Origin: an uncultured Armatimonadota bacterium
GTDB taxonomy: Bacteria; Armatimonadota; Fimbriimonadia; Fimbriimonadales; Fimbriimonadaceae
NCBI GenBank assembly: GCA_903899015.1
Contig: CAIUHP010000113.1
Span: 62,001-126,000, forward strand
Length of the DNA stretch: 64,000 bases
Direction of reading: 5' to 3'
Each line of letters begins with the position of its first letter. Position 1 is the stretch's first letter. The position numbers were made by a program, and so were the translations under genes. The notes beneath the pieces are model-generated. The model was not told the DNA's origin. It searched no databases and saw only the letters and a list, made by a program, of their open reading frames with translations. Of the stretch, positions 33,666-39,648 are shown piece by piece.

Positions 33666-35042
33666 TTACCGTTTCGCTACGGCATTTGCACTTGTCGTCT
33701 GGTTGAGAGATAGTAAGAACGCTTGAAGTGCCGCAACTTCTTCGTCCTTTCCAACAAGCGGAGGCATGTAAGCGTGATAGGGAGAATCGCTCTTATTCTG
33801 CCGGAGCATCGAGAGAATATTGCCTACTGCTTTTGCGTCACGCCCTTCTAAGAACCGCTTCATCGACCGGTATCCGTTCTCGGTATGACAGCTCATGCAT
33901 TGACCACGAAACATCGCTTTGCCAAGTTCATGCTGACTTACTGATGGTCCACTCGGCGTCCACATGGAGTGAGTGAGATACCCATCTTGATTGAATTTCG
34001 CGACGTCCCTTACTCGAACGCTATTGGAGTACATGTGGCTGCCAATGACAAACGGTTTACGGATCGCCTCACGAGCATATTCGGTGGATCCAGTCGCAGC
34101 TAGGGCAAGCAACAGAATCGCGATCGAATGGCTTGGACTAAAGTCTTTCGGAAACTTATAGGCGAACAGATAGGCGACCGCCGCGATTGTCGAAGTGCTC
34201 ATGACAGAAAGCAGAGCGATTCGAGTTACCTGCGTGAACGAACCTTGTCCGATCGAGGCCATGCCAAGTTCCAATAGATGCTTGTTTGCATCGGGGACCA
34301 TCATGATGTACCACAGGAAGGTCACCGGCATGAGGAGAAACGCGGGAGCGAGCCACTTGGTACTCCATCGAATCAGCTGAGTTTTAGCGTTGCCATAAGA
34401 ATCGTCGTCGAGACGAGAGTAAGTGACGAGCGCCCAAACTCCAGCAAGAGAAATGCACACCAACGTTCGCAGAACAAGACTCGGCCAATAAGTTGGGTTA
34501 AAGAAAGCGTTCCAGAAATAGCTCGATTCATGTCCCGAGCCAACGACGCCTAGCCAGGTGGTTCCCGGAGTCAACATGAAAGTCAAAATGCCGTTGATGA
34601 TGACGAGGGTACAGATCGACGAAATCGCGTAGAGCCAACCAACTTTTAGGTGCAGGGCGGCTGGAATACGATTCCACGTGTAGTAATACACCGCTGCTGA
34701 AGTCAATTCAACAATGAAGAAGACCCATTCAATCGCCCAACCAAACACAAAGTTATGGATCAAGGTGCTGGTTGCTTCTGGCTGAATCAAGCCGATAGAA
34801 AACCAGATTCCGACTCCGGAAACCGCCCCAAATACGCCGGTTAGGACGAGGAAGAACTTCGAGTGAGCTTGGAGCAACGGAAACCAGTTCGCACGCCCCT
34901 CTTTGATTGCTTTCGCTTCCGCGAGAGCCAGATAGAGCCCTCCTCCCACTGCAAAGTGAGAGATCATGATATGGAAGATCGCGATGATCCCGATAACCCA
35001 GGGTAATCCGATCCCTTTTACTTCCCAAATTGGATAATTCAT
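33666..35042 (-). CDS. CydA-like quinol oxidase subunit I homologue fused to cytochrome c
   Basis: The ATG 35042 follows AGGAAA at 7 bases. The protein has about 458 residues. The membrane part resembles cytochrome bd subunit I: HIMISHFAVGGGLYLALAE (TM1 His and Glu), VFGAVSGVGIWFSIGLI, and FGWAIEWVFFIVELTSAAVY with a Glu pair close to the CydA E99/E107 arrangement. The GRQPW loop of true quinol oxidases is not seen. The C-terminus (after about residue 365) is a cytochrome c domain with CMSCH and a candidate Met in YMPPLVG. It is the last gene of an operon with cytochrome b and Rieske proteins, so it probably passes electrons within that complex. Confidence 0.8.
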   Translation of the reverse strand: MNYPIWEVKGIGLPWVIGIIAIFHIMISHFAVGGGLYLALAEAKAIKEGRANWFPLLQAHSKFFLVLTGVFGAVSGVGIWFSIGLIQPEATSTLIHNFVFGWAIEWVFFIVELTSAAVYYYTWNRIPAALHLKVGWLYAISSICTLVIINGILTFMLTPGTTWLGVVGSGHESSYFWNAFFNPTYWPSLVLRTLVCISLAGVWALVTYSRLDDDSYGNAKTQLIRWSTKWLAPAFLLMPVTFLWYIMMVPDANKHLLELGMASIGQGSFTQVTRIALLSVMSTSTIAAVAYLFAYKFPKDFSPSHSIAILLLALAATGSTEYAREAIRKPFVIGSHMYSNSVRVRDVAKFNQDGYLTHSMWTPSGPSVSQHELGKAMFRGQCMSCHTENGYRSMKRFLEGRDAKAVGNILSMLRQNKSDSPYHAYMPPLVGKDEEVAALQAFLLSLNQTTSANAVAKR

Positions 35043-35053
35043 TTGATAGTTTC

Positions 35054-36121
35054 CTAACCGGCTACGTAGCCAAGTAGAGTGGTGACCAGGAGGACTCCTA
35101 GGCAAAAGATGCCGAAGTAAGTTGCATACCGTCCATTGCGTCCCTTTGGCGAACTCGTGTCGAAGAACGGCACAAGGCACCAAAGCACCAAGCCAAGCGT
35201 AAAGATCGTAATGCCGGCAGCCTCACCCAGCATTCCTGGAATTACCTTGCCAATCAGCTTGAGCGTTTCAAACGAACTCATGAAGTACCATTCGGGATGA
35301 ACACCGGCTGGCGCGGGTCCAAGAGGATCCGTAACCTTTCCAAGATCCGGTGGGAAGAGAGATGCCACGAGTGCAATTGCATTGAGGGTTACGAGCCACA
35401 TCGCCAAATCTTTGAGAATGAAGTTTGGGAAGAATGGAATCGACTTTCTCTTTTCCATCGGAACGTCTTCTTCACTCGGAGGAATCGCGTTGCCGTGTTT
35501 CTGCACGAGAAACAGATGGAACATCAACAAAGGCAAGTACAGCAATGGCAAGACAACCGCGTGCCATGCAAAGAATCGTTGTACGGTGATCTCGGAGACT
35601 TCAAGACCGCCCCGCATCAGATTAGCGATCGTATGACCCACGAGAGGAATGTTTTCAGGAATCGCGAGTCCGACCTTGGTCGCTACAAACGATAACTGAT
35701 CCATCGGAAGCAGATATCCACTGAAGCCAAAAAGCAGTCCAAGAATGAGCAAAGCCATTCCCGACCACCATCCAAATTCTCGAGGCTTTCGGTAGGCCTT
35801 CATGAAGTACACCGAAAACATGTGTACGAACACCGAGACCAAGAAGATGGTCGCCGACCAGCTATGGGCCGATCGAATCAGCCAACCAAAATCGACATCG
35901 TATGTCAATGAGCGAACCGAGTTATAAGCATCCGGTCCCGGCTTGTAATAGATGATAAGGAGAATTCCCGTTACAAGCTGGATCAAGAAGCAGAGCAAGG
36001 AAATGCCGCCCCAGTAATACCAGAACGAATATTTATGAAGGGGAACGGTTTTCTTGCCCGCGAACTTCTTCAGTTCAGAGATAGAAAGTCGTTCATCAAG
36101 ATAATCGTAAACTTTTGACAT
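35054..36121 (-). CDS. cytochrome b (bc/b6f-type, N- and C-terminal halves in one chain)
   Basis: This 355-residue quinol-oxidising subunit has haem ligand His pairs in SAHSWSATIFLVSVFVHMFS and WHAVVLPLLYLPLLMFHLFL. The LLPMDQLSFVATK segment follows the first pair. The Qo-site PEWYF lies in VHPEWYFMSSFETLK. About eight or nine helices are expected. The gene starts one base after the Rieske stop. The C-terminal half is short, as in menaquinol-type complexes. Confidence 0.9.
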   Translation of the reverse strand: MSKVYDYLDERLSISELKKFAGKKTVPLHKYSFWYYWGGISLLCFLIQLVTGILLIIYYKPGPDAYNSVRSLTYDVDFGWLIRSAHSWSATIFLVSVFVHMFSVYFMKAYRKPREFGWWSGMALLILGLLFGFSGYLLPMDQLSFVATKVGLAIPENIPLVGHTIANLMRGGLEVSEITVQRFFAWHAVVLPLLYLPLLMFHLFLVQKHGNAIPPSEEDVPMEKRKSIPFFPNFILKDLAMWLVTLNAIALVASLFPPDLGKVTDPLGPAPAGVHPEWYFMSSFETLKLIGKVIPGMLGEAAGITIFTLGLVLWCLVPFFDTSSPKGRNGRYATYFGIFCLGVLLVTTLLGYVAG

Positions 36122-36122
36122 A

Positions 36123-36608
36123 CTATGCTCTCGTCACCGTTACCGCCCCATTGGCAACTTTAATTTGGAATCGAGTAAGCGGCTTGGGTGGGGGACCGCT
36201 CACATTTGCTCCGGTATGAGAATCGTAGACACCACCATGGCAAGCGCAAACAATCTTGTCCTGCTCGGGGTGATACTGAACCGTGCATCCTAAGTGGGTG
36301 CACACGGCATCAAAGGCAACCCAAGAATCATCCTTGTGATGGATGAGCATCGAAGGATATGGGCCAAATTTAAAAAGGAGAACGGCTCCTTTCTCGAGCT
36401 TATCTGCCCCCGCCAACGTCACGTCTTTCACGGCCGAGAGGGCTGCCTCACGCTGCACCGGTGAGTTTAAGTATCGGTAGATGGGGTAACCGACTGCCGC
36501 TGCGTAGGCGAGGCACATTCCACCCACCGCTACCTTGATAAAATTGAGACGGCTAATCTCATTTTCGCCGGGATCTTCTGGCGAAACAGCCATGATTTCT
36601 TCGCTCAT
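36123..36608 (-). CDS. Rieske iron-sulfur protein
   Basis: The ATG at 36608 overlaps the upstream stop (ATGA), which sets the start; the long upstream extension is the other frame. The protein has about 161 residues. One N-terminal membrane anchor (NFIKVAVGGMCLAYAAAVGY) is followed by the Rieske fold with CTHLGCTV and CACHGGVYD, which supply the two Cys and two His [2Fe-2S] ligands and the disulfide Cys pair. It transfers electrons from quinol at the cytochrome b Qo site to a cytochrome c acceptor, here probably the fused cytochrome c of the last gene. Confidence 0.92.
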   Translation of the reverse strand: MSEEIMAVSPEDPGENEISRLNFIKVAVGGMCLAYAAAVGYPIYRYLNSPVQREAALSAVKDVTLAGADKLEKGAVLLFKFGPYPSMLIHHKDDSWVAFDAVCTHLGCTVQYHPEQDKIVCACHGGVYDSHTGANVSGPPPKPLTRFQIKVANGAVTVTRA

Positions 36609-37711
36609 GCGTTCACTTGCTCCGGAATAGGTTTGGCAGCTTTCATCACCGACAGAAGCCATCCGATGGCTCCCAGCCCGGCAACGAAAAGGACGAGAAA
36701 GATGCAAATCACAAACCAGTTCGAGGCTTCTTGACGCTTCCAAACATCAAAACCCTTTTGAAGGAGCGTGACATCACGAATTCCGTCTCTCACAATCACT
36801 GCCCCGGCAATCCCTAGAAAAGCACCCAAGGAACCAAGAATGGTTACGAGTAAGCCACTCGCCTTCCGAGCCAGAACGACTCCCGCCATCAACAGAGCCA
36901 AAGCAAATCCCACGCCCCACACGACAATCCCGATTTGGTAGAGGGGGGTGTGCATTCCGTTTTGCACTTCGCCAGGTTGAACGGTATAAACCCAGAAGCC
37001 AGTTGCCAGTTCTCCCAGCGCACCGATGACTGCAAATGTTGCGCCCGTAGATCGAAGCAATTCGGCTGCGCCGCTTTCGATGGTCTTGAGTTTGCTGTGA
37101 AGAGTCAGCCAGAAACCGCCGACCAAGAATCCACCGATGAGTACAAACATCAATCGAGGTTCTGCCGTAGGGTCATGCGGAGCGGATTGAAGCCCTGACG
37201 CGGTCTTGGCATACATCTGCTGCCAGACTTCCGGTCGAAGCATCAAGGTCATATTGGCGGCATAGATGTGCCCGACCATTGCGGCAAGCAAAAGAGCTCC
37301 TATGGCGTGCCAATGCACTGGCTTCCCGTAAGTAGTTCGATCTGAAATTCGGTAAAGCAACCAATAGCAACCCATGAGGATGAAAACAACTCCGATCCAC
37401 TGAACCGCGATGAGAATGCTGCTGGTGTAGAGCGCACGTCCGTATAGAACTTGTGCAAAAAGGAGAGGCGGCACCCCAAGATTGATGACGTACGTCATGA
37501 CAATTGGGAGACGTCTTGCCACGGTAAGCGCGGCACCCTGAGCGGCAGGGCCATTTGATCTGGCTTTCAGACTGAAATAAATCACGGCAACGAGACTGCC
37601 GATTAGAATCTGAACAGCAAAAAAGTGAAGGGCCAACGTCAAGAGGCTCAGAACTTTCATGAGCCAAATTGGGGCTGGAATTGGGATGGGGTCTACATTT
37701 GGAAATTGCAT
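36605..37711 (-). CDS. multi-TM protein, first gene of the Rieske/cytochrome b operon (CydA-like?)
   Basis: This 368-residue membrane protein has about nine helices. The N-terminus (PAPIWLMKVLSLLTLALHFF, then GSLVAVIYFSL) and the second helix pair (VPPLLFAQVLYGRALYTSSI) have the same spacing of helices and His/aromatic positions as the CydA-like gene at the end of the operon. It lacks that gene's cytochrome c domain. Several membrane His residues (HWHAIGALLLAAMVGHIYAA) could bind haem. A distant CydA homologue acting as a second quinone- or haem-bearing subunit is my inference. It overlaps the Rieske gene by four bases. Confidence 0.6.
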   Translation of the reverse strand: MQFPNVDPIPIPAPIWLMKVLSLLTLALHFFAVQILIGSLVAVIYFSLKARSNGPAAQGAALTVARRLPIVMTYVINLGVPPLLFAQVLYGRALYTSSILIAVQWIGVVFILMGCYWLLYRISDRTTYGKPVHWHAIGALLLAAMVGHIYAANMTLMLRPEVWQQMYAKTASGLQSAPHDPTAEPRLMFVLIGGFLVGGFWLTLHSKLKTIESGAAELLRSTGATFAVIGALGELATGFWVYTVQPGEVQNGMHTPLYQIGIVVWGVGFALALLMAGVVLARKASGLLVTILGSLGAFLGIAGAVIVRDGIRDVTLLQKGFDVWKRQEASNWFVICIFLVLFVAGLGAIGWLLSVMKAAKPIPEQVNA

Positions 37712-37892: not shown

Positions 37893-37927
37893 CAAAAAGA
37901 CCCGGCCTCACTAATACGGGACCGGGC
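37893..37927 (-). terminator. rho-independent terminator of the fasciclin gene
   Basis: On the minus strand CCCGG (37926-37922) pairs with CCGGG (37905-37901), followed by TCTTTTTG. It lies just after the fasciclin stop. Confidence 0.8.
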
Positions 37928-37951: not shown

Positions 37952-38464
37952 TTACTTGGGCAAGATAACCGAGTCAATCACGTGAATGACTCCGTTCGAG
38001 CATACGATATCAGTCTTGACAACCTTGGCGTTATCAACTTTGACTCCATGCTTGTTGTGAATGGTAATCGAAGCGCCGTTAACAGTCTTAACTTTCGTGC
38101 CGTTCTTCAGCTTGAGAACGTCTGCAGCCATAACCTTTCCAGCAACTGCGTGGTAAGTCAAGATCGCAACCAACTTCGACTTGTTCTCTGGCTTGAGCAA
38201 GAATGCAATGGTGCCTGGCTTCTTCTTCTCAAGGGCCTTGAAAGCATCATCGGTTGGAGCAAATACTGTGAAAGGACCAGCACCCTTCAAAGTATCGACA
38301 AGACCAGCAGCCTTCACTGCAGCAACGAGAGTCTTGAAACTGCCTGCAGCCACCGCGGTGTCTACAATGTCCTTCTCTTCAACTCGGGTTGTCGGAGCAG
38401 CGAATGCGCTCGAAATAGCGGCCATACCGATGATCGCAAGTGAAATCCATTTTGTTGTTTTCAT
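37952..38464 (-). CDS. secreted fasciclin-domain protein
   Basis: The start ATG 38464 follows AAAGGAAAAGAG; an in-frame upstream ATG at 38506 is not supported. The signal peptide [20 protein letters not shown] ends near AFA-APTT. One FAS1 domain of about 135 residues follows, with the H1 motif [35 protein letters not shown] and the H2 motif [17 protein letters not shown]1 domains mediate adhesion or bind small lipophilic ligands, including carotenoids in some proteins. The promoter region is shared with the divergent CarH-like regulator. Confidence 0.9.
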
Positions 38465-38589
38465 ATCTCTTTTCCTTTCTCGTCGATTAAGAATGCTCGC
38501 ACCCACGAACGGAAACCATCCGCGGCTGAAAGACTTACATCCCTCTCACGTCTCAACTCAATCCTGAGCCGAATCTCCTATACACCTAG

Positions 38590-38708
38590 ATATTGCATCA
38601 CTTGTCTAATGTTTGTCAATTATTTGTCTAAGATTGTTCTCAGATTAGAAACAGGAATGAGCACCAGTTGACCCAAATGTTGACAAATCTTAGACAAGAA
38701 TTCATACT
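38590..38708. promoter_or_regulatory. divergent promoters with repeated TTAGACAAG operator motif
   Basis: Plus promoter: TTGACA (38680-38685), 17 bases, CATACT (38703-38708). Minus promoter: TTGACA (38619-38614), 18 bases, CAATAT (38595-38590). Just after each TTGACA lies the same TTAGACAAG (38690-38698 plus, 38609-38601 minus). A further copy forms an exact 12-bp inverted pair: TTGTCTAAGATT at 38624-38635 and AATCTTAGACAA at 38686-38697. An operator between -35 and -10 is the classic position for MerR-family regulators, so control by the adjacent gene is expected. Confidence 0.7.
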
Positions 38709-38718
38709 CGTTCAAGTT

Positions 38719-39648
38719 TTGAACCTGACCTATACGATTGGCACGCTCGCAAAGCTAACCGGCTTGTCCCCCCATACGATCCGAGCATGGGAGCGGCGAT
38801 ACAACGCACTCAGCCCCGATAGGTCTATCACGAACCGTCGTCTCTATCAGACGGAAGATCTCGAAAGGCTTACCGCGTTGCAAAGGGTTGTGGAAGCTGG
38901 GCACAGCATCGGTCAAGTTGCAAACCTTTCTACCGAGCGTCTGAGGTCCCTAGATGCTCAACGAAGCCCAGTCGCAACCCCAGTGAGACAGGACGAAGTA
39001 ATCGTTGGAGAACGCAATCCATTTCTTGAAGCTGCACAGAATGCCGTCTTAAGACTTGACCCGGAAGGATTGGAGGATTCCCTGATTCGTGGACATGCCT
39101 CACTGGGAATTTTTGGACTTCTTGAAGGCGTGGTCGTTCCTCTCATTTCCGACATTGAGACTCGATGGGTAAATGGCACTCTGAGCATTAGTCACGAGCA
39201 CATGGCATCAGCAGTTTTACGTTCCTTTCTCGATCAAGTCCGAAAATCCATGCCTGGGTCGCAGACCGCACCGCGACTCATTGTCACTACTCCGCAAAAC
39301 CAGATTCACGAAATTGGAGCGCTCATGGTCGCAATCGTTGCCGCAACTCAGGGCTGGCGGGTGACCTACTTAGGACCCAATTTACCGTCCGACGAAATCG
39401 CCCATGCCGCCAATCAATTATCTGCTCGAGCGGTTGCCCTGAGCCTCGTCTTCCCAACCGACGACCCACTCCTGCCTGCCGAGCTGAAGCGACTTCGACA
39501 AAACCTGCGCTCAGATGTCCAACTCATTGTCGGCGGAAGGGCCACGCATTTTTACATGAATGCGTTGAAAGAGAATCACGCGATCGTACTGTCGGATCTA
39601 ACATCCGCGAAAGACGTCTTTCACGACGGTCAAATCGAACCATCGTAG
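38719..39648 (+). CDS. MerR-family regulator with B12-binding domain, CarH/LitR-like photoreceptor type
   Basis: The TTG at 38719 gives MNLTYTIGTLAKLTG, a normal MerR N-terminus, and lies 10 bases after the -10 box; upstream TTG 38668 and ATG 38677 are before or inside the promoter. The protein has 309 residues: a MerR HTH (HTIRAWERRYNAL), a four-helix cap with the Wx9EH signature (Trp150, Glu160-His161), and a cobalamin domain with the cobalt-ligand loop QIHEIG (His197) and YLGPNLP. CarH proteins bind adenosylcobalamin, repress as tetramers in the dark and release DNA in light. Here the residue after Trp150 is Val, where Thermus CarH has the His that ligates cobalt after photolysis, so the light response may differ. 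It probably controls itself and the fasciclin gene. Confidence 0.85.
   Translation: MNLTYTIGTLAKLTGLSPHTIRAWERRYNALSPDRSITNRRLYQTEDLERLTALQRVVEAGHSIGQVANLSTERLRSLDAQRSPVATPVRQDEVIVGERNPFLEAAQNAVLRLDPEGLEDSLIRGHASLGIFGLLEGVVVPLISDIETRWVNGTLSISHEHMASAVLRSFLDQVRKSMPGSQTAPRLIVTTPQNQIHEIGALMVAIVAATQGWRVTYLGPNLPSDEIAHAANQLSARAVALSLVFPTDDPLLPAELKRLRQNLRSDVQLIVGGRATHFYMNALKENHAIVLSDLTSAKDVFHDGQIEPS

Follow-up and report, generated by a model that had tools for sequence, protein, structure and literature searches.

CarH is best known for switching carotenoid genes and for its use as an optogenetic tool. Its operator is built from an 11-bp unit, nnnnTnnACAn, and Thermus CarH recognises three such repeats, one of them including the -35 element (PMC9304148). 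In the light state of Thermus CarH, His132 serves as the second axial cobalt ligand. The published light signature consists of the motifs GxxW, EH, GxxH and GxxxP, and the glycines of GxxW and GxxH act through their main-chain carbonyls in a homologue (PMC11796333). Class II LitR proteins control phrB, ufaM, folE and cryB (PMC9758184), so that the original prediction for the locus described here was incomplete in holding that CarH targets are mostly carotenoid genes. Among FAS1 (fasciclin) proteins, loss of Fdp reduces adherence about 100-fold (PMC7561615), RSP_1409 is upregulated under photo-oxidative stress (PMC7074977), and an Azospirillum FAS1 protein mediates flocculation under RpoE-ChrR (Dubey 2021 as cited in PMC10949492). 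Only some FAS1 proteins bind carotenoids (PMC10147662). A literature search of open-licence papers returned no paper linking FAS1 to CarH or LitR, and the MerR-like regulator MliR, which affects adhesion, shows neither a B12 nor a FAS1 link (PMC9478572).

The window analysed here, a stretch of 64,000 nucleotides from an Armatimonadota genome, contains a regulator gene (38719-39648, + strand) and a FAS1 gene (37952-38464, - strand) that diverge from an intergenic region at 38465-38718. The regulator consists of 309 amino acids with a TTG start. According to Pfam, it comprises a MerR helix-turn-helix, a four-helix B12-binding_2 domain and a Rossmann B12-binding domain, which is the architecture of class I LitR/CarH proteins and is reproduced by AF2/Foldseek. 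Its top match among PDB sequences is Thermus CarH (5c8d, E 8.9e-29), and its AF2 model (mean pLDDT 92) has CarH structures as top Foldseek matches. W150, E160-H161 (the Wx9EH motif) and H197 correspond to W131, E141-H142 and H177 of Thermus CarH, so the predicted retention of this signature and of the cobalt-binding His holds. The NCBIfam CarH equivalog NF052513 is the best match among all families, with 128.9 bits against a cut-off of 400, and because the score lies under this cut-off we term the regulator CarH-like. A PduO-type adenosyltransferase is encoded in the genome and allows cobalamin to be converted to AdoCbl. The FAS1 protein consists of 170 amino acids, with one FAS1 domain (Pfam Fasciclin, 2.9e-37) behind a Sec-type signal peptide predicted by eye. 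Its nearest solved single-domain relative is 1W7D (E 1.7e-40), whose name and length of 137 residues fit the mature Fdp of R. sphaeroides.

Between the two genes, the original prediction described TTGACAAA-NN-TTAGACAAG at both promoters and a further copy giving an exact 12-bp inverted repeat. Both are present, the former at 38680-38698 (+, NN=TC) and 38601-38619 (-, NN=CA), the latter as AATCTTAGACAA at 38686-38697 (+) and 38624-38635 (-). The underlying arrangement is more regular than this description: the true operator unit is an 11-bp direct repeat, nnnnTnnACAn, with the core TnnACA. As this is the published CarH unit (PMC9304148), what each promoter carries is a clean CarH-type operator rather than a novel motif. 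On the FAS1 side, three tandem units at 38602-38634 (-) read ATCTTAGACAA/ATAATTGACAA/ACATTAGACAA. The first (38624-38634) lies 5' of the -35 box, the second (38613-38623) contains the -35 box TTGACA (38614-38619), and the third (38602-38612) falls within the -35/-10 spacer. On the regulator side, two tandem units at 38676-38697 (+) read AATGTTGACAA/ATCTTAGACAA, the first (38676-38686) containing the -35 box TTGACA (38680-38685) and the second (38687-38697) lying within the spacer. A -35 box is thus enclosed in each of the two arrays, and the predicted CarH-like B12 regulator with matched operators at both TTGACA boxes is borne out by fold, domains and repeats.

The regulator promoter, TTGACA-17-CATACT, has its -10 hexamer at 38703-38708 (+) and received a promoter scanner score of 10/12. 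For FAS1, a weak candidate -10 element, CAATAT, was found by eye at 38590-38595 (-), 18 bp from the TTGACA box, where the scanner made no call. The TTG at 38719 is a more likely start for the regulator than an earlier codon, which would overlap the promoter. Judging from the homologue alignment and the position of the -10 hexamer, the regulator mRNA is probably nearly leaderless, with a transcription start predicted by eye a few bases from the TTG. Behind FAS1, a GC-rich hairpin followed by a U-run forms a possible intrinsic terminator (37893-37927, -; fold z only -0.54, no scanner call), and from this modest hairpin FAS1 is probably transcribed as a single gene.

Pattern searches of the 4.94-Mb genome with zero mismatches gave three TDGACAA-N4-TDGACAA sites, which overlap or adjoin one another and all belong to this locus. 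The strict tandem pair is thus confined to it. The looser TDGACA-N5-TDGACA adds one match, within a coding ORF. No tandem repeats lie near the crt cluster or the second FAS1 gene of this genome. The carotenoid cluster (L153, G000:C68:68000-86000) encodes a phytoene synthase, two desaturase-like proteins and an IPP-isomerase-like protein. A wide regulon was considered and is unsupported: across nine genomes TWGACA-N5-TWGACA has 23 matches, 13 of them at regulator loci, against seven for the reversed control, and the off-locus places are without convincing arrays, although such a pattern search would miss degenerate operators.

We postulate that the regulator acts as a CarH-type, AdoCbl-dependent repressor on its own gene and on that of a secreted, Fdp-like FAS1 protein, and that light or a shortage of B12 lifts this repression; we consider this reading probable. 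In the dark and with AdoCbl bound, the regulator would oligomerise, and the oligomer would bind the tandem 11-bp repeats over the two -35 boxes and thereby silence the regulator gene and the divergent FAS1 gene. When light breaks the Co-C bond, or when the cofactor is missing, the oligomer would be loosened and both genes derepressed. The exported FAS1 protein would then work at the surface, in adhesion or aggregation under photo-oxidative stress. V151 in place of His132, the replacement of two signature glycines and the weak -10 element of FAS1 count against this reading, as does the distance of the relatives from which the role of FAS1 is taken.

The Val in place of the Thermus His, to which the original prediction drew attention, is real (V151) but not distinctive. 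Light-responsive homologues carry Arg, Gln or Tyr at this position (PMC11796333), and 36 FAS1-adjacent homologues have Arg (16), Val (6), Glu (4), Ser (4), Lys (2) or, once each, Ala, Gln, Asp and His. The residue therefore marks the Thermus mechanism more than the family. Within the light signature, EH and GxxxP are present in the regulator, while GxxW reads ExxW and GxxH reads NxxH, the glycines being replaced by Glu and Asn. The literature on the loss of His132 is divided: the H132A variant of Thermus CarH stays largely tetrameric under illumination, against an earlier finding of disassembly (PMC10442372), while CtMerR of Chloracidobacterium thermophilum, with Arg at this place, monomerises in light (PMC11796333). 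In view of this division and of the two Gly departures, the residues make AdoCbl-dependent repression likely and light relief likely as well, the latter with less assurance. V151, the replaced glycines and the blocked light monomerisation of H132A (PMC10442372) would also suit a sensor of B12 alone, in which AdoCbl represses FAS1 and the regulator, the light-state His has been lost, light is irrelevant and FAS1 is made when B12 is scarce. We regard this as unlikely, given the light response of CtMerR, the light-stress genes that neighbour the homologues in relatives and the invariance of the Trp that stacks on the adenosyl group. This Trp and the Glu-His pair are found in 36/36 FAS1-adjacent homologues and the cobalt-ligand His in 35/36, which argues against a B12-independent repressor resembling Myxococcus CarA, whose relief would come from a partner protein or some other signal. 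CarA has no need of B12 to bind the same operator (PMC9304148), but no candidate antirepressor gene adjoins the regulator, and we judge such a mechanism improbable.

For the postulated AdoCbl-dependent repressor, we favour occlusion as the mode of action, by analogy with CarH, because the repeats cover the -35 box and spacer, the spacers measure 17-18 bp, and there is no MerR-type palindrome in an over-long spacer. The MerR-type DNA-binding domain and the location of sites partly between -35 and -10 could instead indicate activation in the fashion of MerR activators. This is very improbable, as spacers of this length and direct rather than inverted repeats on the -35 box itself are what is seen with CarH repressors.

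The pairing of regulator and FAS1 is conserved far beyond this genome, in agreement with FAS1 being the predicted target. Among 291 Armatimonadota genomes, 30 encode a close regulator homologue, and in 21 of these FAS1 is divergent from and adjacent to the regulator, with tandem repeats in 19 of the 21; in one more genome (G032) the locus is cut at a contig end. The best 80 homologues from public genomes yielded 79 testable upstream regions, of which 63 carry two or more TnnACA units in tandem and 16 carry three or more; dinucleotide shuffles predict 1.4 and 0.01, respectively. The FAS1 fraction in these best 80 is biased upward, since the query was built from mostly FAS1-linked regulators; the search of the Armatimonadota genomes used the same query but lists every genome with a match. 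When same-strand TWGACA pairs were counted with no spacing assumed, the distances peaked at 11 bp (51 pairs), compared to nine pairs at 19 bp and eight at 22 bp. At 36 homologue loci the array includes TTGACA with a -10-like hexamer 16-19 bp downstream. That the repeats are chance likenesses of two -35 boxes without regulatory meaning has a negligible probability: the repeat core does overlap with a common element, the -35 consensus TTGACA, but TAGACA is no -35 box, the periodicity is 11 bp, the arrangement is unique in the genome, and its conservation across phyla already contradicts this explanation.

The pair is found also in Verrucomicrobiota, Thermodesulfobacteriota, Dadabacteria, Zixibacteria, KSB1 and unplaced bacteria. 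FAS1 runs in the same direction as the regulator at a Gemmatimonadota locus and lies about 1.6 kb away from it at an Ignavibacteria locus. A single origin of the FAS1 link is unsupported by the regulator tree, on which the label requires 17 changes, yet is clustered; the bootstrap had not settled. Four records titled Akkermansia muciniphila or Klebsiella pneumoniae (L083, L100, L121, L139) have regulators that group with environmental Verrucomicrobiota, and their titles look wrong.

Neighbouring genes in relatives, assigned by simple ORF calling, point in a common direction. The genome G013 has no FAS1, and at its locus (L042) TspO is divergent from the regulator homologue. The Rieske and cytochrome b genes behind this TspO are those of the window, where an operon-like set at 33666-37711 (-) encodes a membrane protein with no Pfam match, a Rieske protein, cytochrome b and a CydA-like protein with a cytochrome c stretch. 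This set, also found behind TspO in G013, resembles an unusual quinone-oxidising complex. TspO/MBR genes stand beside CarH-like regulators at L042:6592-7068 (replacing FAS1), L047:3617-4075, L073:803-1405, L086:2456-3031, L152:4946-5401, L107:4923-5414 and L199:2455-2910. Their recurrence, in place of FAS1 or alongside it, points to porphyrin photosensitisation. FAS1-free homologues adjoin sigma factors (12/31), NUDIX proteins (8/31), FAD oxidoreductases and a pirin. In Poribacteria a NUDIX protein is divergent to the homologue (L113, L115, L120, L124, L126, L128, L136, L149); the one tested, from L120, is a type 1 IPP isomerase, and the supply of isoprenoids may therefore be under the control of the switch there. 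The genes behind FAS1 in relatives include sigma factors (5/24), an FAD oxidoreductase and a SOUL heme-binding protein. In Thermodesulfobacteriota and Dadabacteria (L076, L078, L096, L093) an RpoD-like sigma factor lies at most 75 bp behind FAS1, and through this linkage the switch may drive a larger response. Taken from these neighbours in relatives, TspO, sigma factors, IPP isomerase, SOUL and FAD oxidoreductase suggest that FAS1 serves a light-stress programme.

The carotenoid-binding role that had been proposed for FAS1 is not supported. AstaP matches the FAS1 protein with E-values of 5e-16 and 5e-12, against 1.7e-40 for 1W7D. The phytoene synthase family is missing from the pair-bearing genomes G003, G033 and G038 (98-99% completeness) and G048 (88%), and from 9/29 other pair-bearing genomes, one of which is probably G003 again. 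As Fdp is far closer, the pair occurs in phytoene-synthase-free genomes and the crt cluster is without tandem repeats, we regard an AstaP-type carotenoid-binding protein as unsupported. Operator-linked FAS1 proteins are mostly 52-77% identical to that of the window, whereas the second FAS1 protein encoded in this genome shares 45% identity with it. By analogy with the distant relatives Fdp and the Azospirillum FAS1 protein, the exported protein would act at the cell surface, most likely by promoting adhesion or aggregation when the cell responds to photo-oxidative stress.

The recurrence of pair and sites in several phyla suggests a widespread, apparently undescribed light- or B12-controlled switch for a surface protein. 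Such a conserved pair would provide CarH with another major role, this time at the cell surface, and would link B12 photoreception with FAS1 proteins, which in Rhodobacter and Azospirillum are known as targets of the response to photo-oxidative stress. Natural CarH-like receptors in which Val, Arg or Ser replaces His132 also bear directly on the need for bis-His ligation in the light response. A broader picture, which we advance tentatively as possible rather than probable, is a widespread switch at the cell surface, gated by light and B12 and shared by several phyla. In it, a CarH-type receptor lacking the bis-His light state would have a secreted FAS1 adhesin under its direct control, and light would induce attachment or aggregation as a carotenoid-independent form of photoprotection.

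Among the systems compared, microalgal AstaP has the FAS1 domain in common with the window protein and is far more distant from it than Fdp. The class II LitR proteins PplR and PmlR of Pseudomonas likewise represent family control of non-carotenoid light genes; in contrast to the present regulator, they lack one of the two B12-binding domains, and work with LOV proteins, and FAS1 does not figure in that paper (PMC9758184). In Rhodobacter and Azospirillum, a secreted FAS1 protein is likewise a photo-oxidative target of RpoE-ChrR (PMC7074977; Dubey 2021 via PMC10949492), which is a sigma factor/anti-sigma pair sensing singlet oxygen, whereas the regulator here is of the B12 photoreceptor type. 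CtMerR (8JBS/8JBT) matches the fold of the regulator and shares a CarH-like B12 domain without His132, replaced by Arg in CtMerR; its target genes are not given, and its DNA-binding domain is said to differ from that of Thermus CarH (PMC11796333). With CarH of Thermus thermophilus, the regulator shares fold, domain order, the equivalents of Trp131, Glu141-His142 and His177, and tandem 11-bp TnnACA operators including the -35 box. It differs in Val for His132, in an identity of 27-28% over the structural match, and in its predicted target, which is FAS1 and not carotenoid genes.
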